A stretch of DNA of 64,000 nucleotides from Siderastrea radians (lineage: Eukaryota > Cnidaria > Anthozoa > Scleractinia > Rhizangiidae), in the NCBI GenBank assembly GCA_964017195.1, contig OZ024889.1, positions 53,476,711 to 53,540,710 of the forward strand. Direction: 5' to 3'. Shown one piece after another: positions 16,343 to 64,000 of this stretch; position 1 is the stretch's first letter; the number at the start of each line of letters is the position of its first letter. Made by a program: the position numbers and the translations under genes. Under the pieces are notes generated by a model. The model made no database searches. It saw nothing but the letters and a program-made list of their open reading frames with translations, and was not told where the DNA came from.

Positions 16343-17374
16343 TTAAGAGCCATTTTCTGAGAATATCGAGAATCGAAAGACACTCACGAAAAATCGAATT
16401 TTTTTTTATTTTGCCAAAACATCCCTTTGGGTAAGCTAATTCAAGAAAGAATAATCCAAAGTTCCAACGAGTTATTTAACGACGAAAATTTAAAAAGTTC
16501 GAAAAATGCATAAAATGGCGGTTTTAGGGTCTCTAAACGGCTCAAATTCTCACTCAACTTTAGGAAGCCGGAGAGAGCGTAAAAAGGATTCTTTTAAAAC
16601 GAAACAAACCACGAACATTATTTAACCTTCTACTTTAAAACTGTGTAATAAATTTACCAATGTTTGGTTTCGAACATTTTCAAGCGGCGTTTTTATCGAG
16701 CCGCTCTTGACCTTGTTTATCACAAGGTAAAATGAAGGCCAACTTCGGCCGCTTAAAACGGCATCTGGTATGTATCGTTCAATGATTAAAACTACACAGA
16801 AAGAAAGCTCTGTCATTGTACTTTTCACCAGGAAAGTTACAGCTTTGGGAATCAAATACTTCCCCGTCAGAAAATTTTTACTCTTTAGTGATCTGAGCGG
16901 GTAGAATTATATGCAAATTACAGATTTAATTCCTGGAATACTGCTAACAATTACAAAGGTCGTTTAAGATAGGCTCACCATTAGTTACACAGGCACACAC
17001 AATGTTTTTCCTGATCTTTGAAAGAAAGTTCTGCTTTCTTGAGTCTTGGTGAGTCTTATTATGTTAAAACAAAGCAGAGTTTTAACGGCATTTCAACAAG
17101 ACAGGAATCCTCTCATTCAACTTAACCAAGATAACATGGAAAACACAGAGAAACGACGTACTATGCCGCCTACCTTGCCAACCGAAAACGCAACAATACA
17201 ACAGAAAAGCATTCCAAACTGTAAACAAACGAATTTTCAGTTTCCTGATTGTGCGAAGATATTTTAAACTCATCGCCCGGAGGAATACGCGGAAAGACAG
17301 GTGACCTCTGCACTGACCCGCACGTGTCACACCACAGGCGTCCCAAACTCACGATTCGAGAAATCGATCGAATA

Positions 17375-17437
17375 AATGATTTATGTAAGCGTATGAATGA
17401 TTTATGTAAGCGTATGAGTGATCTATGTAAGCGTATC
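17375..17437. repeat. 21-bp tandem repeat, three copies
   Basis: AATGATTTATGTAAGCGTATG repeated three times with few changes. The same array occurs inverted in the other arm of the palindrome at about 27,826-27,888. Confidence 0.85.
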
Positions 17438-18635
17438 GAGTGGGACGTGACTACTTGAAGTGCGCGGTGTTGTGTTACAATTTAGGCCGTTGGAAATTTG
17501 AGCGCTCTATAAGACTTTGTATGGAGTTTAAAATAACGTGGAATAAAAGCGCTCGACGAAATAAAATTTTACATTCTCTTCAATAAAATAAAGAAAATGT
17601 ACTCACCTTTCTTGATTTCTGTTGTCCTTTTGGGCTATTTCATCGTTTTTGGGGGGTTTTGAGGTTTTTGTCGTAGCCTTCATAAGACGAAGTCAAGGCT
17701 GGACAGAGCCATTTCGAACGAGCCGTGCCGCGAGGCCGTTTTCTCGCCAAAATTCGAATCCGCGGCTTGATTTTCCCTTCCGACGTAAAGAAGGAAAGTT
17801 CGTTTTTCTCCTCGTCTGGTCAGCTTGGAAAAAACTTCATCCTTTCCGCTCCAATTCGAACGATTTATGCATCACTACTGGAGCTTTCAGCTTTCCTGAG
17901 CACCTTGTTCCCGTCTTTTCGACTACGGCACAGTTGGAAATCAAACTTTGCGACCGCTCCAGCGTGACAACTGCGACTGACCGGACGGGTGCACAGTCAA
18001 AATTTTTCATAAAAATCTTACTCTTTCCCCACGACCCCACGGGAGCATTTTGACGCCCCTTTGTAATGTAATAATAATAATGTAAGACCAATCGCGTGAC
18101 AGATAAAGCGAAGACAGGAAAATCGAATTCAAAAACCGTTTCTTTGCGCTCGGCATGTAATTCCTTTATGCGTGATGCTTTCGAAGATGAAGAGATTAGC
18201 TGATATGGATTGCACCATAGCTTCGCTTCAAAAACCGTTTCTTTTCGCTCGGAAATTGTTTGTAATCTACTCTTCATGCAATGGATATACCTTATTTTCT
18301 GTTTAAGTGGACATTAGTTGTCATTGTCATGCTTTGTCATGTTTTATTTGCTAAATGCGTCGGCCTGTTGTAATTATTGATGCTAGCACGCCGCAATGGA
18401 AATCCCTGGCTCGTTGTCATTTTGTGCATTAACGTTAGAAATTGCTTTTTTATGCGGTTTTCACAGGAAGTCCCGGTAAATGCCCGGGTTGATGGTAAGC
18501 TGACGATTCTAAAGCCTCGTTGTTTTCGATTTATTATTATCTGAACGGTTTACATCAATTAAAGGTGAGAAAAATCGTCTCGCAAACTCATATCCGTTTC
18601 TTTGGGCCAGATAGAAAAGCTGGACTGGACTGGGG

Positions 18636-19563
18636 GAAGTAGCAAGGAGTGACAGGCCTGCACGACTTCTAACAATGGAAACATTTATGCAATGTCGCCT
18701 CTTTATATTTTTGCTCTGACAAGTATGTCATTTAGCGATTTACTTTTCTTGAAAGAAATGATCGGTGGCTCTTTGAAGATTTGTTGTAGAGGTGGCTGGT
18801 TCTGTATCAGGTGCCATTTTTCCATTAAAACATGTTTGAGTTTAGGCACCGCTGGTTGGTATTGTGTAACAAAAGGAAAGATATCTTTTCGATTGTCGTT
18901 TTTCTGCTGTAGAGCCGATGTCCTTTCTGTGAATTTAACATCTGATAAAAGCGTTTCTATCAGGCGTTTTGGGTAGCCTCTAGCAAGAAGTCGTGATTTG
19001 AATTTTCTGATATTCTCTTCAAATGTTTCTTTTGAAGAGTTAGTTCTTAGGAGTCTTAGGGCTTCGCCTTTTACGAATCCTTTTTTGACACCCGGTGGGT
19101 GGCTAGAGGAGAAATGTGTATATTGAAAGGTTTCAGTCGGCTTAAAATGTGTTTTAATGTCCAGGACGGATTGATCCTGGAATCGCTTGCCTTTGTACAC
19201 AATTGTGTCCAGAAAGGTAGTTTCAGTGTCCGAGATTTCAGCTGTAAATTTGATAGTAGGGTGATGTGAGTTTGCTCTTTCGATGAATGTTTGTATATCA
19301 AGTTTACTAATATCCCACAGTGAGAAAATATCATCAATGTAGCGTTTCCAAGCTGTTGGTTTTGCAATGCTTTCACTGAGAATTTGTGTTTCAATACTAG
19401 CCATGAAAATGTTTGCAAAAGCAACGGCCATTTTTGTGCCCATGGCAGTACCATGGATTTGAAGGTAGTCCTTTCCATTGAATCGGAAAGAATTTTCTTT
19501 TAGAATAAGTGTTAGCATTTGTCTGAGATATTTAGTGGGGATCGGAGGGTTGTTTCTGTGAGG
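18636..19563 (-). pseudogene. Penelope-like reverse transcriptase fragment, left copy
   Basis: The minus-strand frame (stop at 18,703, extending to 19,518) reads an RT core with GTAMGTKMAVAFANIFMA, the catalytic YIDDIFSLW and the downstream TTFLDTIVYKG and HPPGVKKGF blocks typical of Penelope-like RTs. It ends at ILVRAKI and a stop. The usual Cys-containing linker and GIY-YIG endonuclease are absent, and the N-terminal part of the RT is missing. It is near identical to the opposed copy at 19.6-20.3 kb, one visible difference being L versus P after DISK. Confidence 0.8.
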
Positions 19564-19565
19564 GT

Positions 19566-20390
19566 TGTTTCCATTGTTAGAAGTCGTGCAGGCCTGTCAC
19601 TCCTTGCTACTTCCCACTCTGAGTATTGAAACACAAATTCTCAGTGAAAGCATTGCAAAACCAACAGCTTGGAAACGCTACATTGATGATATTTTCTCAC
19701 TGTGGGATATTAGTAAACCTGATATACAAACATTCATCGAAAGAGCAAACTCACATCACCCTACTATCAAATTTACGGCTGAAATCTCGGACACTGAAAC
19801 TACCTTTCTGGACACAATTGTGTACAAAGGCAAGCGATTCCAGGATCAATCCGTCCTGGACATTAAAACACATTTTAAGCCGACTGAAACCTTTCAATAT
19901 ACACATTTCTCCTCTAGCCACCCACCGGGTGTCAAAAAAGGATTCGTAAAAGGCGAAGCCCTAAGACTCCTAAGAACTAACTCTTCAAAAGAAACATTTG
20001 AAGAGAATATCAGAAAATTCAAATCACGACTTCTTGCTAGAGGCTACCCAAAACGCCTGATAGAAACGCTTTTATCAGATGTTAAATTCACAGAAAGGAC
20101 ATCGGCTCTACAGCAGAAAAACGACAATCGAAAAGATATCTTTCCTTTTGTTACACAATACCAACCAGCGGTGCCTAAACTCAAACATGTTTTAATGGAA
20201 AAATGGCACCTGATACAGAACCAGCCACCTCTACAACAAATCTTCAAAGAGCCACCGATCATTTCTTTCAAGAAAAGTAAATCGCTAAATGACATACTTG
20301 TCAGAGCAAAAATATAAAGAGGCGACATTGCATAAATGTTTCCATTGTTAGAAGTCGTGCAGGCCTGTCACTCCTTGCTACTTCCCATTG
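19566..20390 (+). pseudogene. Penelope-like reverse transcriptase fragment, right copy
   Basis: The inverted near-identical copy of the left fragment, reading rightward to the stop at 20,317. It is shorter at its 5' side, starting at SIETQILSE. It is preceded by a copy (19,566-19,613) of the same terminal tag that ends the element (20,340-20,388, GTTTCCATTGTTAGAAGTCG and onward). Repetition of the element's end at the front of a 5'-truncated copy resembles the pseudo-LTR arrangement known for Penelope-like elements. YIDDIF is intact, but no complete protein is encoded. Confidence 0.8.
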
Positions 20391-25600: not shown

Positions 25601-28175
25601 AGATTGTGGGAGGGACCCTATAAAGCTAAGAATGCATTGCACATTCTGAAGCATAACCAACTCCAGAGTTTAAAGGGAGCAAGGGAAGAATGGTTGCAGT
25701 TTTGCTGGGATTTTGTAAAGTCCCCCTGGAATGATGAAATAGCTTTGCAACATTTTTTTTTCTTGCTTGCAGCAGTGCAAGAATTTTTTTTCTATTTCAT
25801 TTGTGCTGCATGCAATTTTTTTCTTCCGACAAGGGCTTGCAGGAAATTTTTTTCGAAATCATCCACGCCCCCCCCCTCAAGAGTTAAATGGTCGGCCCCT
25901 TATCAGAACGGGTTACATCAATTAGAGGTGAGAAAAATTTAGGTGCAAACTAAAACTCAAACATTTCGTGGCAATCAGAACACAAACCGTAGTGGTAGAC
26001 CGTAGTGGGAATGCACGGTAGATGCTTTTCTGGATTCATACACAGTACACGCAATTCCACTTGAACATACCACTGCCACCTTCAAACCAACAGCATTAAG
26101 ATTTGATATGATCTCTTCAACCACGGCGACTTTCCAGTTCCAGCCTGGCCAGTAATTAGTAAGTTATGGCCTCTAGAAGCCACACTCACAAACTTGACCC
26201 GGTGTTAAAACGCTCATTGTAATGTTGACCCTTACATTTTTCGACTACCACTGACAACCATTAAATAGAAACTAAAGACAAAATTTTCCCTGATCCGAAG
26301 TTTGTGTTCTGATTGCCACGAAATGTTTGAGTTTTAGTTTGCACCTAAATTTTTCTCACCTCTAATTGATGTAACCCGTTCTGATAACAATAGAGCTTTA
26401 TGATTACCATCGTAAAACGGCAAGTCGAAATACCAAAACAATTAACCATTTCCGGGAAGTTCGTGTGAAAAACTTCATTAAAAAGAAGCAATTTCTATTT
26501 TGGATGCTTAAAATGATAACAAACTAAGGATTACCAATCGCACTTGCGGCAAAAATGGCAATATACCGACGCGTTTTCCAAATAGAAAAAAGACAAATGA
26601 TGACAATTAATGTCGATATAAAGTGAGATACTGTATATCCATCGCAGAGTAATTACAAACACGGCGCAAAGAAACGGATATGAGTTTGCGAGACGATTTT
26701 CTCACCTTTAATTGATGTAAACCGTTCAGATAATAATAAATCGAAAACAACGAGGCTTTAGAATCGTCAGCTTACCATCAACCCGGGCATTTACCGGGAC
26801 TTCCTGTGAAAACCGCATAAAAAAGCAATTTCTAACGTTAATGCACAAAATGACAACGAGCCAGGGATTTCCATTGCGGCGTGCTAGCATCAATAATTAC
26901 AACAGGCCGACGCATTTAGCAAATAAAACACGACAAAGCATGACAATGACAACTAATGTCCACTTAAACAGAAAATAATGTATATCCATTGCATGAAGAG
27001 TAGATTACAAACAATTTCCGAGCGAAAAGAAACGGTTTTTGAAGCGAAGCTATGGTGCAATCCATATCAGCTAATCTCTTCATCTTCGAAAGCATCACGC
27101 ATAAAGGAATTACATGCCGAGCGCAAAGAAACGGTTTTTGAATTCGATTTTCCTGTTTTCGCTTTATCTGTCACGCGATTGGTCTTACATTATTATTATT
27201 ACATTACAAAGGGGCGTCAAAATGCCCCTTTGTAATGAGTAAGATTTTTAATGGAAAATTTTGACTGTGCACCCGTCCGGTCAGTCGCAGTTGTCACGCT
27301 GGAGCGGTCGCAAAGTTTGATTTCCAACTGTGCCGTAGTCGAAAAGACAGGAACAAGGTGCTCAGGAAAGCTGAAAGCTCCAGTAGTGATGCATAAATCG
27401 TTCGAATTGGAGCGGAAAGGATGAAGTTTTTTCCAAGCTGATCAGACGAGGAGAAAAACGAACTTTCCTTCTTTACGTCGGAAGGGAAAATCAAGCCGCG
27501 GATTCGAATTTTGGCGAGAAAACGGCCTCGCGGCACGGCTCGTTCGAAATGGCTCTGTCCAGCCTTGACTTCGTCTTTGAAGGCTACGACAAAAGCCTCA
27601 AAACCCCCCAAAAACGATGAAATAGCCCAAAAGGACAACAGAAATCAAGAAAGGTGAGTACATTTTCTTTATTTTATTGAAGAGAAGGTAAAATTTTATT
27701 TCGTCGAGCGCTTTTATTCCACGTTATTTTAAACTCCATACAAAGTCTTATAGAGCGCTCAAATTTCCAACGGCCTAAATTGTAACACAACACCGCGCAC
27801 TTCAAGTAGTCACGTCCCACTCGATACGCTTACATAGATCACTCATACGCTTACATAAATCATTCATACGCTTACATAAATCATTTATTCGATCGATTTC
27901 TCGAATCGTGAGTTTGGGACGCCTGTGGTCACACCACACTAACAGAGAGAGTCACGTATTCAATTTCTGTTATGTGATTTGAGATAAAAACTTGGTGTTG
28001 AATTATATGGTAGCACAAGCTCCACAAAGGAGTTTTTACGGTCACGACTCTCTCTATTAAGCGCGGTAATTTCGCAATGGCGTGCTGTTGTAATTTTACT
28101 ACTAATTTAATTACAGCTCATGAAATAAAATAAATATTGCAGTAAGTTACATTCACAGTGTGTAAGTACTGATAT

Positions 28176-28368
28176 ATGGCGTCGCGTAGTTTTTCCACTC
28201 TTCTGGAGAGGGTTACCGCCTGTGGATTAAGCAGTTGTTACCCAGGCCACGTTGAAGTTGTTTCCCTAAACGAATGCACAAGACGCATCTCGCGGCATCT
28301 TCAATTGCACGGACTAAGTGCAGATAAAGCGGTTGACAGTGAATTCAAGTTGTTGTTAGCCCGAGCAG
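28176..28368 (+). CDS. Exon-like frame in left TIR arm, unknown protein
   Basis: ATG at 28,176 begins MASRSFSTLLERVTACGLSS and continues for about 64 codons to SEFKLLLARAG, then a good donor GAGCAG|GTAATG. An inverted copy lies at 33,713-33,896 with its own ATG and donor and a few amino-acid changes, so both arms of the element preserve it. I do not recognise the family. It could be the first exon of a transposase or a captured host exon. Confidence 0.4.
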
Positions 28369-28493
28369 GTAATGTTATTGCATTTTGTTCTGGAATTACT
28401 GTGTTCCACAATTTTGGCCACAGATACTTCATAGCACTCGACGTCCCTTTAATCTAGGTTCTGCAGAGTCGCGCTACTCCTGTGCCCTCCGGC

Positions 28494-28643
28494 TGTAGTA
28501 GGACACTTTGTGTGTTATTATATAGCGTGCCAAAAGAGTCAGAACTGGTTAGAACCGGTTCGAGAGAGTTCGGAAAAAAGGAGAAACACGTGCAGTTGTT
28601 GTTGAATGTTGTCTTGTCTTTTGAGTTCAAATTCCCTACTACA
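28494..28643 (+). repeat. 5' LTR
   Basis: 150-bp repeat beginning TGTAGTAGGACACTTTGTGT and ending CCCTACTACA. Confidence 0.9.
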
Positions 28644-28678
28644 AATTGGTGGAAAATCCGGGATTCAAGCTGAACACC

Positions 28679-31300
28679 ATGCCTGCCACAGTAGAAGAGC
28701 TACAAGGACTAATTGCTGGACTAAGCGAAGTTGTTAAGGGCTTAGCCACAAATCTAAACACAGTCGCGACTCAAGTTGGCGCCGTTACCGCCGCGTCACA
28801 TGGTCAACAATCGAGCGAAGCCGACCCTGTTGTTACTCAGAATCCAAATTTGCGCCTTCCAACACTCCAGTTGCCCACTTTTCGACAGGATACTACGGTT
28901 CAAGACGACATTTCTTACTTTCTGGAAAGATTTCAGGAACACACAGCTCATTTAACGCCTCCTGTTCGACAAGCGCTCCTTGAACAACAATGCATTGGTG
29001 AGTGGCCTCGATCTGTGCTGTCGTTTTGTCGATCGACCGAAGGATTCAGCGCCCAAACGCCATCTCAGCAATTCGACATGTATGTCAAAGCCCTCCGAGA
29101 GGAATTTGAAGAGCCCAAAGATTCGAAATGTCGCCGCCTTGCTTCCGAGTTAAGTGCAATGGTGCAAGATCCTTCGGAGTCAATTGATCAATTTGCCTTC
29201 AAGTACAAGAATGTTTTACACAAACTGGACAAATTGGGGGAAAATCTCAGTAAAGCTTGTCCCGCTTACATTACCTCGCAATTCATTTCAAAGTTGCAGC
29301 CACACATTGCTCAGCACATCGTTTTGCAGGCGGATCAGATTACTCGTCTCGATAAAGCCATTGAAGTTGCTCGTCGAATTGAACAATCGTTTTCTGCTAA
29401 GACTCCTGCATCTCAGTCATTAACTTCAACCTCACCTGGTTCAACCTCCACCTCCACTCTTGCAGATTGGAAACCTTCGCGTTCAGCCCTAGTTACTACG
29501 CCTACTCGATTTAATTCACCCCGTGGATCTCATCAACAGCAACAAAACTCCTGCTGGATATGTGGTGACACAAACCACATCTCACGTGATTGCACAAAGC
29601 GTACGAAGCGACCTACCAAGAAAACTCCTGAAGTCTGTCGCAATTTTAACAAGTTCATTTCAGCTAACTGTGAGCAAGCCAACAACAAATGTTCTGCGGG
29701 AAGATTGCACAAATGTTCTAACTGCAACAAATGGGGATGTAAAGCTGTTCGTCACAAAGAGACACCCCCTCAATCTCTGGTCGCTGGTCTTCAGTCTACA
29801 GATAAACCAAGTGATGAAATTGCACCTGTGGGTCAAGACACTGCCGTCTTTGGCCTGCCAGCTGTTACCAACCCTGCTGGATCACTCAAGGAACGTCACA
29901 TCCTCTGGACCCCTGTCATCTCTGCTGGTGAAAGACTTCCACTACCCCTTGACAGTTGCTGCTCCGTATCTCTTGTCAGTCGCTCCCACGCTGACCTTGT
30001 TGCTTCAAAATGTCCAAAGTTAAAGTACCAGTCTCTTGAGAATCCTATTGCTGTATCTGTTGCTGATTCACAGTCTCAGTTGAAAGCCATTGGCACAATG
30101 GAAATTCCAATCCAATGGAACAATGGAAAAGAAAGCACCTTTCAAATGCTCGTAGTACCTGGTCTCTCTTGGCCCATGTTATTCGGTGAGAATCATTTAC
30201 ACGCCACTCAGGCCTTGGTGGATCATGCTGAGCCTAGCATCCACTTTCGACACCCCAGCATGTCATTCAAAATTGCCTGTTCTCTCCAGAACCCATTGAC
30301 AGAAGCACATGGTTGTAGCAGTAACACCCATGCTGGTGTCACCTGTCTGCTTACTGGTCCCTCATTTCCAGGCTATTCTCCAGGAAATTCTCAGCTAAAT
30401 CGTGGACTGAACTTTGTCTCTGTCTGCCTTACCGTTGGAACTGCACTCATGGCTTTTTCACCTTCTGACTTATGGGTCGATGGTCAAGACATACAGCCTG
30501 GTGTCAAAGTTTTAAGTGGCCCGTTCCACATGACTGCTGCCACAGACCAACTTGTTCCAGCCAAGTCATGCCATGCATCAGTTGTTAACATCCCAGAAAC
30601 TTCATCTGAATCCAGTTTTGTCCAACACATCTCAGATCCTCAGCCTGTGTACACTACAACCCTTGCTATCGTGTGCAAACGTAAACAAGCAGACATCCCT
30701 CAAAACATCATTCTTGGACATCTTCGGCCAATGCAGAAGGAAGACACTCAAGTTTATGAAGATGCAGCAGAGAATACAACATCTGTTCTCGCTGAAAGCT
30801 GGATGTCATGGGCGAATGGACAACAAGTACTGCCACCTTCATCTGCCATGCAGCCTCCATCAAACATTTCTTCAACTCAAACCTGGAAGTTATCTGAACA
30901 ACAGAAAGAATTAGCAACTGCAGGACTCGATTCCTCAGTTCTGTCCCCTTTCAGTGAAAACATTAGCGAGTTCAATGAACATGACAAGGAATTTGTGCCT
31001 CCCACAACCACACCACTGGATCCCTTTTCAGATGAGTATTACCAAGCACTTCTTACAGCACTGGCAGTTGATTCACCAAAGTATGCCCATGTTGATCCAG
31101 ACACCCTCCAACAATTCAAACAGCTTCTGCGGAAGTACCCCACTGCATTTCTTCTTCCTGGCTCTCCACTGGGTGAGATCAAAGGTTTTCAGCATCACAT
31201 CGACACAGAGAATGCCTTACCTGTCTACAAGCATCCTTACCGCAAAAGTCCCGAAGAGCTTCTTCTATCAAGAATGAGTTGCAGCGCATGCTTAAGATGA
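28679..31300 (+). CDS. Gypsy Gag-protease polyprotein, frameshifted before RT
   Basis: The first ATG is at 28,679 (MPATVEELQG). The frame runs about 873 codons. The N-terminal third is a retrotransposon Gag-like helical region. A CCHC zinc knuckle CWICGDTNHISRDC lies near residue 291, followed by a second Cys/His-rich segment (about residues 318-358). An aspartic-protease-like motif LPLDSCCSVSLVS lies near residue 423, where the usual D-S/T-G reads D-S-C. The end of the frame enters the RT entry segment (KHPYRKSPEEL), then shifts out of the RT frame near 31,257-31,266 and stops. One extra base therefore separates this ORF from RT. It lies within the element whose LTRs are at 28.5 and 32.2 kb. 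Confidence 0.85.
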   Translation: MPATVEELQGLIAGLSEVVKGLATNLNTVATQVGAVTAASHGQQSSEADPVVTQNPNLRLPTLQLPTFRQDTTVQDDISYFLERFQEHTAHLTPPVRQALLEQQCIGEWPRSVLSFCRSTEGFSAQTPSQQFDMYVKALREEFEEPKDSKCRRLASELSAMVQDPSESIDQFAFKYKNVLHKLDKLGENLSKACPAYITSQFISKLQPHIAQHIVLQADQITRLDKAIEVARRIEQSFSAKTPASQSLTSTSPGSTSTSTLADWKPSRSALVTTPTRFNSPRGSHQQQQNSCWICGDTNHISRDCTKRTKRPTKKTPEVCRNFNKFISANCEQANNKCSAGRLHKCSNCNKWGCKAVRHKETPPQSLVAGLQSTDKPSDEIAPVGQDTAVFGLPAVTNPAGSLKERHILWTPVISAGERLPLPLDSCCSVSLVSRSHADLVASKCPKLKYQSLENPIAVSVADSQSQLKAIGTMEIPIQWNNGKESTFQMLVVPGLSWPMLFGENHLHATQALVDHAEPSIHFRHPSMSFKIACSLQNPLTEAHGCSSNTHAGVTCLLTGPSFPGYSPGNSQLNRGLNFVSVCLTVGTALMAFSPSDLWVDGQDIQPGVKVLSGPFHMTAATDQLVPAKSCHASVVNIPETSSESSFVQHISDPQPVYTTTLAIVCKRKQADIPQNIILGHLRPMQKEDTQVYEDAAENTTSVLAESWMSWANGQQVLPPSSAMQPPSNISSTQTWKLSEQQKELATAGLDSSVLSPFSENISEFNEHDKEFVPPTTTPLDPFSDEYYQALLTALAVDSPKYAHVDPDTLQQFKQLLRKYPTAFLLPGSPLGEIKGFQHHIDTENALPVYKHPYRKSPEELLLSRMSCSACLR

Positions 31301-31965
31301 AGATAATCCAACCAAGTAAATCTGAATGGGGAGCACCTTGTATCCTTGTCCGTAAACCACTTGAAAATGGTCTTCCGCAACCACCGCGCTTTGTTGTTGA
31401 CTACAGAGGCCTCAACAGTGTAACTCGTGGTGATGGCTACCCCATTCCATCCATCGCTAGTGTCCTTGATTCAGTCTCACTGGGCAAGGTTTTTGGTCAC
31501 TGTGATCTTGCAAGTGGATATTGGCAGATTCCTCTCAGCCCACAAGATCGCCACAAAAGTGCCTTTTGTACTCACGTGGGACTTTATGAATTCTTGCGGT
31601 TACCATTCGGATTAAAAACGGCTCCTAACACGTTTCAAAGGATTCTTAACACAGTGTTTGCAGACTATCTACATCAGTGGATGACAGTGTATGTTGATGA
31701 CATCATCATGTGGGCAAGCACATACCGTGATGCACTTCATACATATGAACTGTTGTTTGCACGATCTGTACAAGCTGGCATTCAATTTAAGCCTTCAAAG
31801 TGCACCTTCTTTGCTAAGGAAATCCAAGTCTTAGGACCTTACCAAAACCTCAGTGCTATGCTTCTGAGGCTTGTAAAGTTGTTTATCAGAGCTTTCCAGA
31901 TGCTAGAGACATTCTTAACCGCCATGGTAAACTCAAAGGACTTGTTGCAAAATGCCCTTATTTAA
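31267..31965 (+). pseudogene. Gypsy reverse transcriptase, truncated
   Basis: Continues the pol frame after the shift: NELQRMLKMKII, GAPCILVRKP, FVVDYRGLNS, GHCDLASGYWQIPL, LPFGLKTAPNTFQR and the catalytic YVDDIIMW. After KPSKCTFFAKEIQVLG (about 31,832) the similarity to RT stops abruptly. The remaining residues are not RT thumb or RNase H, so a large internal deletion joins RT to the 3' end. A different frame across 31,860-32,040 (KVVYQSFPDARDILNRHG) is open up to a stop near the 3' LTR and may be the C-terminus of another element protein. Confidence 0.85.
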
Positions 31966-32150
31966 CACTGAACGGTGGACCGCATGGGGGTACATACCTC
32001 CTCACCTTGGACATGGGGCTTTTCCAGGAACTCAACAAGTAACACTCCCAAGAAGGGGTGGACTCATAAGCTAGCATTCGTTTTCCTTGATGTATTAGAC
32101 TTTCTGTTTTGTTGAATTTCTAAGCGTTTTAAACCCAAGAAGGGGTGGAC

Positions 32151-32301
32151 TGTAGTAGGACACTTTGTGTGTTATTATATAGCGTGCCAAAAGAGTCAGA
32201 ACTGGTTAGAACCGGTTCGAGAGAGTTCGGAAAAAAAGGAGAAACACGTGCAGTTGTTGTTGAATGTTGTCTTGTCTTTTGAGTTCAAATTCCCCACTAC
32301 A
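32151..32301 (+). repeat. 3' LTR
   Basis: Matches the 5' LTR except for one extra A in the A run and CCCC versus CCCT before ACTACA. Confidence 0.9.
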
Positions 32302-32339
32302 CGGCTCCCGGGGGTGGGGGGGGGAGAGAAAGGGGCTTT

Positions 32340-33292
32340 TAATCAATGTTTGGGTGCAGGGGTGACGCTGCGGGTTTGACACCCTGGCCCTGTTTAGGAT
32401 AGAAAAACGAAATGGAATGTCGATCGTACTGACCATACCCGGTTGGGGAAGATGCGCATAAAATAATTTACCATGTTTAGGGACAGAGACCAAAACCATA
32501 TCCTGTCCAGCGGCACACCCCAGTATAAACCACATTAGACAGTAACCTTCCCTTCCAGTGGGGGGGGAGTGCCGTGCTTAGCCTTAACTCGCTCAACTGT
32601 AGCACAATATTCATCGACAATAGCACGATGTGATTATTGAACGTCCCCTGATGTAATCTTCCTTGGCAGCAGTTTGAGCGAGCGAGACGCGGAAGCCACG
32701 CAGGCCCATGTGAGAACTCGCCCACATGATACCCTTTCTCGCTTTGCTATTTGGTTTTTGCGTCATGAGGTTGGAAGCCTAGAGTTCAGAGTATATTTAT
32801 CTTTGATTTTTGGTTATTTAGGCATTTTTTCAGTAGAAGAGTCTAAGCTTTCAACCCCATGACGCAAAAACCAAAAAAGGGCTAGCTAAAATGGCAAAGT
32901 GAGAAAAGGTATCATGTGGGCGAGTTCTCGCGTGGGCCTGCGTGGCTTCCGCGTCTCGCTCGCTCGAACTGCTACCAAGGAAGATTGCATTGAAGTTCAA
33001 TTTTCGGCGTCTGAAATTACATCGTGCTATTGTCATGCTAAACACGGCACCACCCCCCCCCCCTCCCCCCGCCCGGAAGGGAGGGTTACTCCCTTGTGGA
33101 GACTATACTGGGGTTTGCCGCTAGACAGGATACGGTTTTTGGTCTCTGTCCCTAAGCATGGTATACAATTTTATGCCCGTCTTCGCCAACTGGGTATGTT
33201 CAGTACGATCGACATTCCATTTCGTTTTTCTGCCCTTAACAGGGCCAGCGTGTCAAACCCGCAGCGTCACCTCTACACCCAAACATTGGTCA
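32340..33292. mobile_element. Foldback/MITE-like palindrome
   Basis: Arms of about 430-450 bases. AATCAATGTTTGGGTGCAGG at the left faces CTACACCCAAACATTGGTCA at the right, and the arms converge near GACGCAAAAACC at about 32,758-32,875. Identity is moderate with indels. No coding capacity. It lies in the core of the long-TIR element. Confidence 0.75.
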
Positions 33293-33295
33293 AAA

Positions 33296-33568
33296 TAAAA
33301 ATAAATAAATAAATACACTTTATTTCAGTAACGTGCATAATTACAGTCAAACTGTAGTCTCCCTTATGGCCCTACGTCCAGGTCGAATTGGAATTTGGAA
33401 ATGTTGGTTTTTATGGAGGGAGGAAAACCGGAGTACCCGGAGAAAAACCCCCTGAGCAAGGACGAGAACCAACAACAAATTCAACCCACATTTGACACCG
33501 GGACCGGGAATCGAACCCAGGCCATATTGGTGGAAGGTGAGTGCTGTCACCACTGCACCATCCCTGCC
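33296..33568 (-). mobile_element. tRNA-derived SINE with ATTT tail
   Basis: On the minus strand from 33,568: GGCAGGGATGGTGCAGTGGT with an A box (TGGTGCAGTGG, complement at 33,550-33,560), a perfect B box GGTTCGATTCC (complement at 33,507-33,517), a conserved body TCTCCGGGTACTCCGGTTTT, and a (TTTA)n tail at 33,296-33,316. It is in the core of the long-TIR element and differs from the SINE at 12.5 kb. Confidence 0.85.
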
Positions 33569-33712
33569 ACCCCCTCCCCCCCACGGGCGCCTGTGGACAC
33601 GGGAGTGGCGCGACTCTGCAGAACCTAGATTAAGGGACGCCGAGTGCCATGAAGTATCTGTGGCCAAAATTATGGAACACAGTAACTCCAGAACAAAATG
33701 CAATAACATTAC

Positions 33713-33896
33713 CTGCTCGGGCTAACAACAACTTGAATTCACTGTCAACCGCTTTATCTGCACTTAGTCCGTGCAACTGAAAATGCCGCGTGCATTCTTT
33801 TAGGGAAACAACTTCAACGTGGTCTGGGTGGTAACAACTGCTTAATCCACAGGCAGTAACCCTCTCCAGAAGAGTGGAAAAACTACACGACACCAT
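33713..33896 (-). CDS. Exon-like frame in right TIR arm, inverted copy
   Basis: Minus-strand ATG at 33,896 reads MVSCSFSTLLERVTACGLSS and ends LLLARAG at the donor GAGCAG|GTAATG (33,713). It is the counterpart of 28,176-28,368, with several substitutions and a short indel around KECTRHFQLHG. Preservation of frame and donor in both arms is notable, but there is no evidence of expression. Confidence 0.4.
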
Positions 33897-35176
33897 ATAT
33901 CAGTACTGACACACTGTGAATGTAACTTACTGCAATATTTATTTTATTTCATGAGCTGTAATTAAATTAGTAGTAAAATTACAACAGCACGTACATTGCG
34001 AAATTACCGCGCTTAATAGAGAGGGTCGTGACCGTAAGAACTCCTTTGTGGAGCTTGTGCTAACATGTAATCCAACAAAGTACTAGCTATCTGTTGCAAG
34101 TTTTTTTTTTCCTTTTTAACTTTCCACCAAGTTTTTATCTCAAATCACATAACAGAAATTGAATACGTGACTCTCTCTGTTAGTGTGGTGTGACACGTGC
34201 GGGTCAGTGCAGAGGTCACCTGTCTTTCCGCGTATTCCTCTAGGCGATGAGTTTAAAATATCTTCGCACAATCAGGAAACTGAAAATTCGTTTGTTTACA
34301 GTTTGGAATGCTTTTCTGTTGTATTGTTGCGTTTTCGGTTGGCAAGGTAGGCGGCATAGTACGTCGTTTCTCTGTGTTTTCCATGTTATCTTGGTTAAGT
34401 TGAATGAGAGGATTCCTGTCTTGTTGAAATGCCGTTAAAAATCTGCTTTGTTTTAACATAATAAGACTCACCAAGACTCAAGAAAGCAGAACTTTCTTTC
34501 AAAGATCAGGAAAAACATTGTGTGTGCCTGTGTAACTAATGGTGAGCCTATCTTAAACGACCTTTGTAATTGTTAGCAGTATTCCAGGAATTAAATCTGT
34601 AATTTGCATGTAATTCTACCCGCTCAGATCACTAAAGAGTAAAAATTTACTGACGGGGAAGTATTTGATTCCCAAAGCTGTAACTTTCCTGGTGAAAAGT
34701 ACAATGACAGAGCTTTCTTTCTGTGTAGTTTTAATCATTGAACGATACATACCAGATGCCGTTTTAAGCGGCCGAAGTTGGCCTTCATTTTACCTTGATA
34801 AACAAGGTCAAGAGCGGCTCGATAAAAACGCCGCTTGAAAATGTTCGAAACCAAACATTGGTAAATTTATTACATAGTTTTAAAGTAGAAAGGTTAAATA
34901 ATGTTCGCGGTTTGTTTCGTTTTAAAAGAATCCTTTTTACGCTCTCACCGTCTTCCTAAAGCTGAGTGAGAATTTGAGCCGTTTAGAGACCCTAAAACCG
35001 CCATTTTATGCATTTTTCGAACTTTTTACATTTTCGTCCGTTAAATAACTCGTTGGAACTTTGGATTATTTTTCTTGAATTAGCTTACCCAAAGGGATGT
35101 TTTGGCAAAATAAAAAAAAATTCGATTTTTTGTGAGTGTCTTTCGATTCTCGATATTCTCAGAAAATGGCTCTTAA

Positions 35177-44970: not shown

Positions 44971-45241
44971 TTAACCTGAGAAAACAGCCGACGTTTCCCG
45001 AGGTCGCCACTTGAGCCCTCGCATAACGACGTCTGAGTAACGAGCGCACAGATGACGCGCCACCACCCAGATCTTGGTAGTGCTTCTGATTGGTTGAAAG
45101 AAAATTCCAACCAATCAGAAGCACTACCAAGATCTGGGTAGTGGCGCGTCATCAGTATGGAATTTCTGCACTTGTTGCTCAGACGTCGTTTTGCGAGGGT
45201 CCAAGTGGTGACCTCCGGAAACATCGGTTGTTTTCTTAGGC
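44971..45241. mobile_element. MITE, Mutator-like, 11-bp target duplication
   Basis: TACGAGATATT is duplicated exactly at 44,960-44,970 and 45,242-45,252. The 271-bp element is one imperfect hairpin: CCTGAGAAAACAGCCGACGT at the left faces its counterpart CCTAAGAAAACAACCGATGT on the other strand, and the arms meet at TTCTGATTGGTTG/CAACCAATCAGAA. The central 45 bases of each arm are nearly perfect. Long TIRs with an 8-11-bp duplication suggest Mutator-like mobilisation. Confidence 0.85.
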
Positions 45242-57830: not shown

Positions 57831-60800
57831 GCTGACCCAGATCACGTTCAAGCAAATAGCATACGTAATGCGCGAGCTTGACGTGCGGATGTGCGTTTGC
57901 TGAAGGAAAGCTTTCACGTCCTCAATTTCATATAAATCGCCGATAATTAATAATCCTTGGTTATGAAAGAAAACTGCCTAGGTCGACTCTTAGACAGCTA
58001 ATGCCTGGGGGTAAAAAACATAAGAGAGGGGCTCGTGGTTCAACTGAAGAAGATACCAACATTTCTAAACGCGCCAATATGGCCGCCACGGAAGACATGC
58101 AGGATCAGCAGCTAACAACTGAAGAACCAGCAATTACGGCCACCGAAACAAGCCTTGAGGAGCTCAAGGAAATGTTGGTCGACATCCAAATCAACATTTC
58201 AAATATTTTTTTAGAAAACAAAAGCATAAAGAATGACTTGGCCGAGCTCACAACAACTGTTCGGGAACAGAAGCTCGAAATCGTTCAACTCAAAACCTCG
58301 CTAACAAAGATTACCAAACAATGTGTTGATGCCGAATACGAACTAGCAGCAGCGAAGAAACGTGTCAACGAACAACAAGACGAAATATACGAACTGTACG
58401 AGCTACAAGACAGATTGGTAGCAATACACGAGGAAAAATTCTCTCGAGATACATGGTGTGCCAGAGAGCGCCTACAGCACGACAGAGGAGGTAGTATTGA
58501 AATTAGCAGAAGCGCTCGAAGTTCCTATTACTCCTCAGGATGTCGAAATTTCCCACAAGTTGAAACGAAAAGGAAACAAACCAATAATTGTTAAATTTGC
58601 CAACCACAAAATCAAGAGCAACATCTACAAATCAAGAGCCAAACTAAAAAACATCCAAGTATCTAATCTATTCCCTAGTGCTACTGCCGCAACTCGTGTT
58701 GCGGGAGACCGTATCTTCTTGTACGAAAACCTCACGTCTTACAGGAAGAAGATAGTAAATCGTGCGAACGAAATGAGAAGAGATGGCCTTTTGCTAAGCG
58801 TCTGGACCCTAGATGGCAAAATTTATGTGAAGACTTCACCAGAAGGTAGGCCGATTAAAATAAACGACCTGGAGGATCTGGAAAATCTTTAAAGGTATTA
58901 CAGAATTCCTAGGAATGATAAACTGTACATAAAATGGGGACGGAAACTGAACAGGAGCATGAGGATGGAACACTCTCAAAACTTTTGTGGTCTGTTTGTT
59001 GTGTGTAGGTATGTGTGTGTAGATGTTATTATTATCAATTCCGCTATTGTTGTCTTTATCCGGCAAACTTTCCTTCGATTTTACTTGGTTTTTCACCGAT
59101 CTCCATACATGTCCATTAACTATTTCGCTTTATTGAAATGGCTAAGTATACAGCATATGCTGTTACTCTTATCACTGCATGTAATAAAACTAGTCTTATT
59201 TACTATCTGTTCTTTAGCAAAAGTTTACATTGACAAAACTCGTCTAATTATTCTATGTCGCGTAAATTAAAACTGCTTTCTCTAAATGTGCGAGGTTTAC
59301 GCAATGTTAACAAAAGAAGAGCAATTTTCTCTTATTTGAAGGCTCAAAAAGCTACGATCTTTTGTCTTCAAGAGACATATTCATCAATCGAGGACGAAAA
59401 AGTGTGGCCTGCAGAATGGGGGGGCAAAATTTTTTTTTCGCATGGCTCTTCGCACTCCAGAGGCGTTTGCATTCTTTTGAATCCACATTCCACATTTCAC
59501 TTGCGACGCGTCGAAGCGGACTCAGAGGGAAGGTTTTTAATTGTTAAAGTCATAATAGATGAAGAATGCTTTTTCGTAACAAACATATATGCCCCGACGG
59601 ATTACCGTGACCAGGACTGTTTCATCCGTCTCTTAAGCGAACAACTCATTTCGAATACAGACACCTCAAAAGTCGTCATTTCAGGAGATTGGAATACAAC
59701 TCTCAATCCAATCGATAAGCGAGGTGGCCAGCCTTGGAAAGCTACAAACTATAGAAATTCTCTCATAAATCTCATGGAAGAACTCAATCTTACAGACATT
59801 TATCGACAAATCAATCCCACCAAAAAATATTTTACTTATGAGTCAAAACCTTTAAACTTAAAATCAAGGATCGACTTTTTCCTTATTTCTCGTCCTCTCT
59901 CTTGCTGCGTCAAGAACACAGAAATTCGAACGTCAATAGCACCCGACCATAAATCAATATTCCTAAACATCGAAATTAAAAATGAATTCGCAAGAGGCCC
60001 GGAATTATGGAAATTTAACAACACATTACTGGAGGATGACAATTATAAAGAACTCATCGAGTTCGATTACCCGCAAATTTTAGTTAAATACCGCGAAATT
60101 ACCGACAAACAACTTCTATGGGAATTGATAAAAATGGAGTTACGCGCGAAAACGATTAAGTACTCGAAAGAGAAAAGATCTAAGTTAAGAAACGAAGAAA
60201 AAGCTCTTCAAGAAGAACTACAAGAACTGGATGGAAAAATCTGCAACAACGATGCTTTCGATCAGGAAACCCTGGAAAAATACGAAGCCGCTAAGGATAA
60301 ATTAAAAAGGATACACGACACTAGAGGGAAAGAGGCTATATTTAGATCCAAGACGAAATGGTTCGAACAAGGAGAAAAGCCAACGAAATACTTTTTCAAT
60401 CTAGAAAAAAACAACTACGAGAAAAAACTAATTCGAGAAGTGAAGTCAGAAAATGATGAGGTAATTTCCAACTTTGTGCAGGTTAATAAAGAGATTGAGA
60501 ACTTTTATAGCAAAATGTATACCTCTAAAATCACTGGTAATAATACCAGCGATGTATCTGAACACAACAATAACATTCACAAATTTATCGAAGGTCTTAA
60601 CATCCCACAATTAAATGTAGAAGAACAAGAATCTCTAGAAAAGGATCTGACGTTCGAGGAACTAAAAGATGCTCTAACATCCTTTGCGGACAATAAATCG
60701 CCAGGAGAAGATGGATTCACAAAGGAATTCTATGAAGCATTCTTTGATCTCCTTTGGAAAGACCTTTTAAATTCTTATAACGATGCATTTAACAAAGGAT

Positions 60801-61316
60801 CATTATCAGTTTCCCAGAAGAGAGGAACAATAACGCTCATTCCGAAAGGTGATGAAAATCTGTCTGATTTAAAGAATTGGCGGCCTATAACTTTACTTAA
60901 TATCGACTACAAGATTCTTTCTAAAGTATTGGCCAAGAGAATGGAGCAACACTTACCTAAACTAATTCATTCTGATCAAACAGGGTTTGTCAACGGAAGA
61001 TATATAGGCCAAAATATAAGACTACTCAGTGACATAATGGAATTTTCAGATAGCAAAAACTTCCAGGGAATACTTTTGTTCGTAGACTTCGAAAAGGCAT
61101 TCGACACCTTGGAATGGAGCTTCATATCAAAAACCTTAGAAGTTTTTAATTTTGGAAAAAAGTTCAAAAAATGGTTTACTGTCCTATACAACGGCGTACA
61201 GAGCTCCGTCGTAAATGGCGGATTTATGACAAACTATTTCGAAATAACAAGAGGAGTTCGCCAAGGCTGTCCACTCAGCCCCTCCTTATTTATTCTTGCG
61301 GTCGAGTTGTTAGCCC
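57830..61316 (+). mobile_element. L1/Tx1-like LINE, interrupted within RT
   Basis: Contains a 5' leader, ORF1 (58,001-58,892, frameshifted) and ORF2 (59,255 onward), with the inter-ORF spacer 58,893-59,254. It is interrupted at TTAA 61,317-61,320, where another element begins. The 5' boundary is approximate. The preserved ORF2 frame suggests a fairly recent insertion. Confidence 0.85.
58001..58892 (+). pseudogene. L1-like ORF1 (coiled coil plus RRM-type C-terminus), frameshifted
   Basis: The first frame (58,001 to about 58,420) starts MPGGKKHKRGARGSTEEDTN and carries a long heptad-rich helix (SLEELKEMLVDIQINISN, LKTSLTKITK). Around 58,416-58,424 an extra base shifts the frame. The second frame then reads YTRKNSLEIHGVPE, the standard opening of the L1 ORF1p RNA-binding domain, and continues to 58,892 (KPIIVKFANHKIKSNIY, SYRKKIVNRA). 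Without the shift this would be a normal ORF1p that trimerises through the coiled coil and binds LINE RNA. The copy is therefore inactive for ORF1. Confidence 0.8.
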
Positions 61317-61336
61317 TTAAGAGCCAGTGTCTGTAA
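59255..61336 (+). pseudogene. L1/Tx1-like ORF2: endonuclease and truncated reverse transcriptase
   Basis: Starts MSRKLKLLSLNVRGLRNVNK. Endonuclease motifs in order: LQETY, TNIYAP, ISGDWN, RIDFFLIS and APDHKSI (residues 1 to about 235). A basic, helical linker follows, then the RT: SPGEDGFTKEFYEAFF, WRPITLLNIDYKILSKVLA, SDQTGFVNGRYIGQNIRLL, LLFVDFEKAFDTLEW and GVRQGCPLSPSLFILAVELL. The frame enters the TTAA-element termini after LAL and stops at 61,336. The catalytic YADD block and the thumb are absent. LINEs normally lose their 5' end, so loss of the 3' end here is best explained by the later insertion. Confidence 0.88.
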
Positions 61337-62895: not shown

Positions 62896-62915
62896 TTAAT
62901 CGACAATGATCCCTT

Positions 62916-63026
62916 AGTGGAACAATATCAGCAAAGGACCGCAAATGAAAATGCTGCACGTGTACGTAGGATCTAGTAAACCAGACCTAATCAGCCAAAG
63001 AAATACTCAAATGACAAACGAAGCAG
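62916..63026. repeat. Direct repeat, copy 1 of the retrozyme-like element
   Basis: Starts AGTGGAACAATATCAGCAAA and ends AAACGAAGCAG. Confidence 0.9.
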
Positions 63027-63106
63027 CAAGGCTGATCTGACTACGTAGAAAGATTTGACTCTGCAAGACATCAACACGACACTAAAAGAACTTTAACAGA
63101 GCAGGG

Positions 63107-63163
63107 TTGCAGCCGTAGACAGCTGTTTCGCTCTACTTAGAGCTCATCAGTACGGCATAGCAA
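63107..63163 (-). ncRNA. Type I hammerhead self-cleaving ribozyme
   Basis: On the minus strand, stem I GCCGTA (63,156-63,151) pairs with TACGGC (63,117-63,112). The core CTGATGA is 63,150-63,144. Stem II is GCTC-TAAGTA-GAGC (63,143-63,130). The core GAAA is 63,129-63,126. The very short stem III CAGCTG is 63,125-63,120, followed by TC (63,119-63,118), with cleavage expected after C63,118. Stem I extends past an asymmetric internal loop by TTGC/GCAA (63,163-63,160 with 63,110-63,107). All invariant core bases are present. A self-complementary stem III without a loop usually works as a dimeric ribozyme. Confidence 0.88.
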
Positions 63164-63410
63164 GACGGCGAAAATGCCGTAAAAATACCCGTGCAGTCTG
63201 TTAGAAGCCCTAAACGAGGACGCACGCCCACCAAATCACGCAATCACGTGTCTTGGAAAGGTCGAGAGTCCAAGTGTCGTGTTGATGTCTCGCAGAGCCA
63301 AAGATAGGATGGACAAAACCAACCTTATAAAGAAACATGGACAAAGCCATGCTATAAAGAACAGCATATCGGATCTATTAAAAAGACCTACGGGCCAAAA
63401 ACATACATAC

Positions 63411-63521
63411 AGTGGAACAATATCAGCAAAGGACCGCAAACGAAAATGCTGCATGTGTACGTAGGATCTAGTAAACCAGACCTAATCAGCCAAAGAAATA
63501 CTCAAATGACAAACGAAGCAG
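63411..63521. repeat. Direct repeat, copy 2 of the retrozyme-like element
   Basis: Matches 62,916-63,026 except two C/T differences (CAAACGAAAATG and GCATGTG). Confidence 0.9.
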
Positions 63522-63541
63522 TTAATGATTAATGATCCCTT

Positions 63542-64000
63542 AACCAGTGATATAAACAAAATTTATATTTTAAAAAATCTATTTGTATACATATACTCTG
63601 CCAGACTAACTGTTTTACTGTAACCTGAATCGAAAGTAAGAAATAATTTGTATAAAATCATTTCTCTTTCGTAAAACCCTTCCTGTTGCGGTAATATTGG
63701 TTTTTCGGCCCACGGCATAAGCTTTACAAATACAAATCAATCTTGCAGTGTTATTGTGTGGTCTTTTTAATTTACTCCACAGAGCAACTACAACAATCTA
63801 CTAATTCTTGAAGAAGAGAAATGTCGGGTACATTCCTCCGTTCTGGCGGGGTTGGTGCTTGAAGTTTCAAGGCAACCTCGCCTTTAGCTTTTATATTTCC
63901 TCAAGAGAAAATAAGGAAACAGAGAGGGACACTGAGGGCGTTGGTTGGGATATGTCAATTCCACAAAAGTTATTTATAGACTGGCTTTTCAACGAAATGT
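63542..64000. other. Unassigned right end
   Basis: AT-rich sequence. No gene, repeat or structured RNA is recognised. Confidence 0.4.

Follow-up and report, generated by a model that had tools for sequence, protein, structure and literature searches.

A young dispersed retrozyme family in the coral Siderastrea radians with insertion ends that point to Penelope-like mobilization

A non-coding element with a hammerhead ribozyme motif

The region analyzed here (the window) is a stretch of 64,000 nucleotides from contig OZ024889.1 of Siderastrea radians. It contains a 606-bp element at 62916-63521, for which the minus strand is the RNA sense. In the numbering of its unit (u1-u495, RNA sense, where u = 63411 minus the window position), the element extends from u385 round the unit to u495, equivalent to 1.22 units of 495 bp. 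This organization had been proposed in a first-pass annotation, and it is confirmed by a 111-bp direct repeat (98% identity, spacing 495) with minus-strand copies at 62916-63026 (u385-u495) and 63411-63521. The GC content is 44%. An ORF scan of 62916-63521 found no frame longer than 72 aa from ATG, so the element is non-coding and lacks the reverse transcriptase and GIY-YIG endonuclease that an autonomous Penelope-like element would encode. Comparison of the element with the rest of the window gave no match better than E 1.3 outside the element itself. Two arms of a 30-bp inverted repeat on the minus strand (63054-63083 and 63273-63302) can pair with each other, closing a predicted rod around the hammerhead described below.

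The element is flanked by an exact 12-bp target duplication, AATGATCCCTTA on the plus strand, located at 62905-62916 on the RNA 3′ side and at 63531-63542 on the RNA 5′ side. Base 62916 is common to the duplication and the element. A duplication of about 20 bp had been reported for this copy; its presence stands and its length does not, as the longer reading combined the exact part with an imperfect extension (82% over 22 bp). Nine extra bases, TTAATGATT (63522-63530), lie between the element and the duplication, and their sequence suggests an incomplete second copy of the target.

A type I hammerhead ribozyme motif was identified at 63107-63163 on the minus strand (u248-u304). The Rfam covariance model RF00163 matches 63156-63112 over 45 of its 45 positions with a score of 31.9 bits; the E value is 6.6e-6 when 751 bp are searched and 5.6e-4 when the search covers the full window. 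This bears out the earlier recognition of the motif, although the score is under the curated cut-off of 34 bits and the motif is therefore absent from a window scan at gathering level. By eye, stem I consists of 6 bp (GCCGUA/UACGGC) followed by an internal loop and four further pairs (UUGC/GCAA), and the core includes CUGAUGA, a stem II of 5 bp with loop AAGU, and GAAA. Stem III is formed by the palindromic ACAGCUGU, for which two base pairs under a four-base loop are possible; the ACAGCUGU sequences of two units could also pair as a longer helix. The predicted cut, 63118/63117, is at the NUH position of the motif, where the first-pass annotation had placed cleavage.

The family and its insertion ends

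A search of the 805 Mb genome with the element produced 81 listed matches, of which the long ones, besides the window itself, have 91-98% identity. There were 492 first-look places; the best 40 of the 492 were scored, so the sample represents the best-scoring part of the family. We fetched 39 further loci and mapped them on the unit together with the window copy. One of these, L041, shares its flanks with L036, which lies 1.6 Mb away on the same contig; the two represent a single insertion found at two places, and L041 was excluded. This left 39 distinct loci including the window. On average, the copies differ from the commonest base by 2.4% per site, and this low divergence indicates that the copies are young. 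The element in the window thus belongs to a young, dispersed family.

At 34 of the 39 distinct loci, a check of core and stems showed the hammerhead motif to be intact; counted by unit, it is intact in 48 of the 56 that cover it. Of the 39 fetched loci, this time with L041 included, 34 have a hammerhead match to the Rfam models at E of 0.1 or lower. Sibling-locus hammerheads are mostly best scored by the HH9 model, and only one, in L030, is above the Rfam cut-off (38.8 bits). Slower change in the ribozyme core than elsewhere found no support (P 0.27). The body of one locus, L014, starts at u294 (L014 position 1083), the base immediately past the predicted cut; a single instance among 39 loci does not exceed chance expectation.

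Direct runs of at least 1.5 units occur in 8 of the 39 distinct loci, which derive from the best 40 of the 492 places. Together with the 81 matches listed, they exclude a single copy without tandem relatives. Such runs would suit a satellite spread by DNA recombination, in which the hammerhead is a relic. We regard this explanation as extremely improbable, as it is contradicted by dispersed short insertions with fixed ends and by 26 copies with target duplications; a satellite without any retrotransposition is rejected on the basis of these duplications and ends.

By unrestricted BLAST mapping, the RNA 3′ ends of the main bodies fall at u376-422 or u487-495 in all 39 distinct loci. Target duplications of 9-15 bp (median 12, counted at a score of at least 9) were found in 26 of the 39 and are 12 or 13 bp long in 17 of these 26. 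The 13 loci with no clear duplication are L012, L013, L014, L016, L018, L024, L026, L028, L031, L032, L038, L044 and L046. The duplications set the end sites as A (u484-500, where u500 is u5 of the next unit; 63406-63422 in the window, minus strand) and B (u387-405; 63006-63024, minus strand, with a second copy at 63501-63519), and no other site is used in the 26 copies. The RNA 3′ end of the window copy, at 62916, is site A.

Bodies of the 26 copies with a duplication end at A in 14 cases and at B in 12; 19 of these copies have an inverted head and seven a direct one. In total, inverted heads were identified in 23 of the 39 loci; that of L036 has lost u298-471. The 19 inverted-head copies with a duplication comprise nine that join an A body to an inverted B head and ten that join a B body to an inverted A head, with no same-site pair (one-sided P for 19 of 19 mixed, 1.1e-5). 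When heads were placed without restriction on the unit, 17 of the 19 fell at the opposite site, for which the chance under random pairing is, by arithmetic, 1 in 24,310. L043 has a head of 10 bases that is unplaceable alone and is compatible with A; the head of L045 has 21 bases and precedes a rearrangement, and BLAST places it at u487-508, which is also compatible with A. The four headed copies without duplication include two that are mixed (L012 and L026), one at neither site (L031) and one that possibly has B with B (L044). Inverted heads and the two start sites were invisible to the first-pass annotation because it was based on a single copy. A two-site rule for retrozymes was not found among the papers listed in one open-access library.

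If each strand chose its site independently, about half of the pairs should be same-site pairs, and none was seen among the 19. Priming of both strands on one circle is the simplest reading, because a circle offers a single A and a single B and the ends are always unlike; two subunits on a single circle must therefore use different sites. The main rival invokes the same enzyme class with two RNAs, one per subunit, in an asymmetric complex whose two subunits occupy different sites, one of them A and the other B. In that case, the mixed-end rule would stem from an asymmetry of the protein rather than from the use of a single circle. The Penelope-like protein of a lizard is predicted to form a dimer (PMC11167929), and body and head can overlap on the unit, e.g., in L042 (u420-905 and u420-497), although a displacing polymerase could also produce such overlap on one circle. 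An extra asymmetry has to be assumed, and the lizard protein acted in vitro without a start-site difference between the strands, according to the available text of PMC11167929. We thus consider the use of two RNAs a secondary, though real, possibility.

Priming, RNA folding and candidate machinery

The RNA past the end matches the target by 1.89 bases on average at 45 junctions, compared with 0.53 when targets were permuted among junctions; none of 20000 permutations reached 1.89. In the 19 headed copies, the total duplication is 12.3 bp with a standard deviation of 1.38, which rises to 2.69 if the matching bases are left out. Given this difference, the duplication looks like an overhang of near-fixed length whose last bases pair with the RNA. 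Such a geometry would require 3′ overhangs at both sides of the break, each of them acting as a primer.

The 495-nt circle has a predicted fold of -178.7 kcal/mol (z -8.6 relative to 100 dinucleotide shuffles), within which ribozyme stems I and II form. In predicted folds averaged over 37 copies, B is the loop of a hairpin (u374-381/u415-422) and A is a loop near u487-497. The mean unpaired probability just past the junctions in these copies is 0.65, compared with 0.35 overall. By itself, a 276-nt stretch that contains the ribozyme and both start sites is not unusually stable relative to shuffled sequences (z -0.93). Near the foot of the B domain, 14 of 39 5′ stops fall in u345-385, a clustering that is not significant against a local uniform null (P 0.11).

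The circle could be dispensed with if a Penelope-like enzyme copied linear multimeric transcripts, in which case the 1.22 units would derive from a dimer transcript. Tandem loci would yield multimeric RNA, and mutants of the hammerhead had no effect on insertion of the lizard element in vitro (PMC11167929). The presence of several A and B sites on one transcript should, however, allow same-site pairs, which are lacking in all 19 copies. The unusual stability of the predicted circle fold also counts against linear templates, as do the retrozyme circles known from corals (PMC7229834), and we judge this route unlikely.

The reading that we prefer, with some confidence, is that of a retrozyme mobilized in trans by a Penelope-like enzyme, with both target strands primed on one RNA circle. 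In this scheme, the type I hammerhead would process a minus-strand transcript to units of 495 nt, which would close into a folded circle. A trans-acting Penelope-like reverse transcriptase-endonuclease, probably a dimer, would make a staggered break with 3′ overhangs of approximately 12-13 nt, as the duplications suggest. Each overhang end would then anneal by 0-6 nt to the exposed RNA loop A or B, and both ends would be extended. One cDNA would run round the circle to form the body, and the other, where kept, would form the inverted head. The window copy would represent the headless form, primed at A and extended for 1.22 turns.

The presence of a reverse transcriptase fragment in the window also speaks for this reading. 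A head-to-head pair at 18634-20386, with 765-bp arms that are 99.7% alike, carries a truncated reverse transcriptase ORF. We read this fragment as Penelope type based on a sequence motif and on its relatives, which are from the stony corals Oculina, Porites, Montipora and Acropora. Both outer ends of the pair stop at the same base and no duplication was seen; if this is a Penelope-like insertion, such like ends would depart from the mixed-end rule. A search for Penelope-type proteins in the flanks of the family loci gave matches only in the window. A large inverted repeat (16343-18608 and 26663-35176) has arms that are about 98% alike, one of which contains a nested insertion near 27929-34184. 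It was considered as the Penelope element of the family and rejected, as its outer flanks share no stretch of 9 or more bases and the 606-bp element matches nothing else in the window at better than E 1.3.

Other features of the window include an LTR-like element at 28493-32301, in which direct repeats of about 150 bp (98.7%) surround ORFs with a zinc knuckle and a reverse transcriptase-like stretch. A near-perfect hairpin at 45050-45154 shows weak matches to several microRNA models, all under cut-offs, and is probably a small inverted-repeat transposon. A tRNA-like sequence on the minus strand at 33496-33567 (31.6 bits relative to a cut-off of 29) is possibly part of a SINE.

An ORF of LINE type, in which Pfam domains of an endonuclease and a reverse transcriptase were identified, lies at 59255-61336. 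Twin priming is known for L1, and LINEs too can produce duplications of 12-13 bp. Mobilization by a LINE, with the inverted heads as products of ordinary twin priming as in L1, would be compatible with these duplications, with the short matches at primed ends and with the presence of this ORF in the window. Two internal start sites and ends without an A-tail are difficult to accommodate, and the head start is as fixed as the body start, whereas to our knowledge the second priming of L1 is not at a fixed site. A LINE is thus an improbable carrier. The target-primed route that the first-pass annotation preferred to an integrase is supported by the duplications and ends of the family. It had left the choice between LINE- and Penelope-type integration open, and here the two internal start sites, the inverted heads and the priming of both strands favor Penelope.

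Comparison with retrozymes and Penelope-like elements

Assignment of the element to non-autonomous retrotransposons of the animal retrozyme kind is supported, with a circle and a cleavage step that we infer. Animal non-LTR retrozymes of Acropora millepora, Mytilus and axolotl (PMC7229834) likewise have a type I hammerhead in short multi-copy repeats with tandem copies, lack a large ORF, are below 50% in GC, and have duplications longer than 4 bp and a highly paired predicted circle; each of these features was found here. The unit of 495 bp compares with 220-240 in A. millepora and exceeds both the 170-400 nt and the 150-450 bp given for animals (PMC7229834), in agreement with the earlier remark that the unit is larger than most. 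Such a size range is descriptive and not defining. Inverted heads and two alternative ends occur here, and the available text of PMC7229834 makes no mention of them for animal retrozymes. Plant LTR retrozymes are also non-autonomous and are thought to spread through hammerhead-made circles (PMC7229834; PMC7761336; see also PMC4918200). They differ from this family in having a type III hammerhead inside LTRs and 4-bp duplications, and they feature a tRNA primer site and a polypurine tract (PMC7229834; PMC7761336).

Penelope-like elements have been named as candidates for moving retrozymes because of their hammerheads, tandem occurrence and presence in the same genomes (PMC7229834; PMC7761336; PMC11722881, as far as the available texts go). 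The purified protein of one such element, Poseidon of the lizard Anolis, uses two adjacent internal start sites, the "tail" being the stretch between them, and this predicted dimer cuts and extends both strands (PMC11167929). In Adineta, Penelope has an inverted pLTR and a 9-bp duplication; the tail, where present, is located at one inverted pLTR, and movement of a gene in trans is also described (PMC3846280). The coral family shows two internal start sites, an optional extension that spans the interval between these sites at one end, priming of both target strands, an inverted first piece and short duplications. For Penelope-like elements, PMC11167929 and PMC3846280 describe the start sites, extension, inverted piece and duplications. 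In both cases the hammerhead is upstream of the start sites: the Anolis hammerhead cuts at +26 and starts are at +111 to +118, a distance of about 85-92 nt (PMC11167929), and about 105 nt separate cut and B here. There are also differences. Penelope-like elements carry an ORF and this family does not; the extension between sites is about 95 nt here compared with 30-40 in the Penelope-like elements of these sources; and the start sites here match the target briefly, whereas the lizard protein used a non-homologous site and needed no match (PMC11167929). The mixed-end rule was counted in this family, whereas for Adineta the tail is described as located at one of the inverted pLTRs (PMC3846280).

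For the question of which enzyme moves animal retrozymes, the ends of this family supply a structural fingerprint, and other genomes can be examined for it. We tentatively propose, at somewhat less than even confidence, that one dimer primes both strands of the break on one circle at two loops, that the pairing of A with B is the fingerprint of that single circle, and that animal retrozymes ride Penelope-like machinery. Steps of Penelope-like insertion still await validation, as stated in PMC11167929. The mixed-end rule bears on how Penelope-like elements complete insertion, as it predicts two active subunits on one template.
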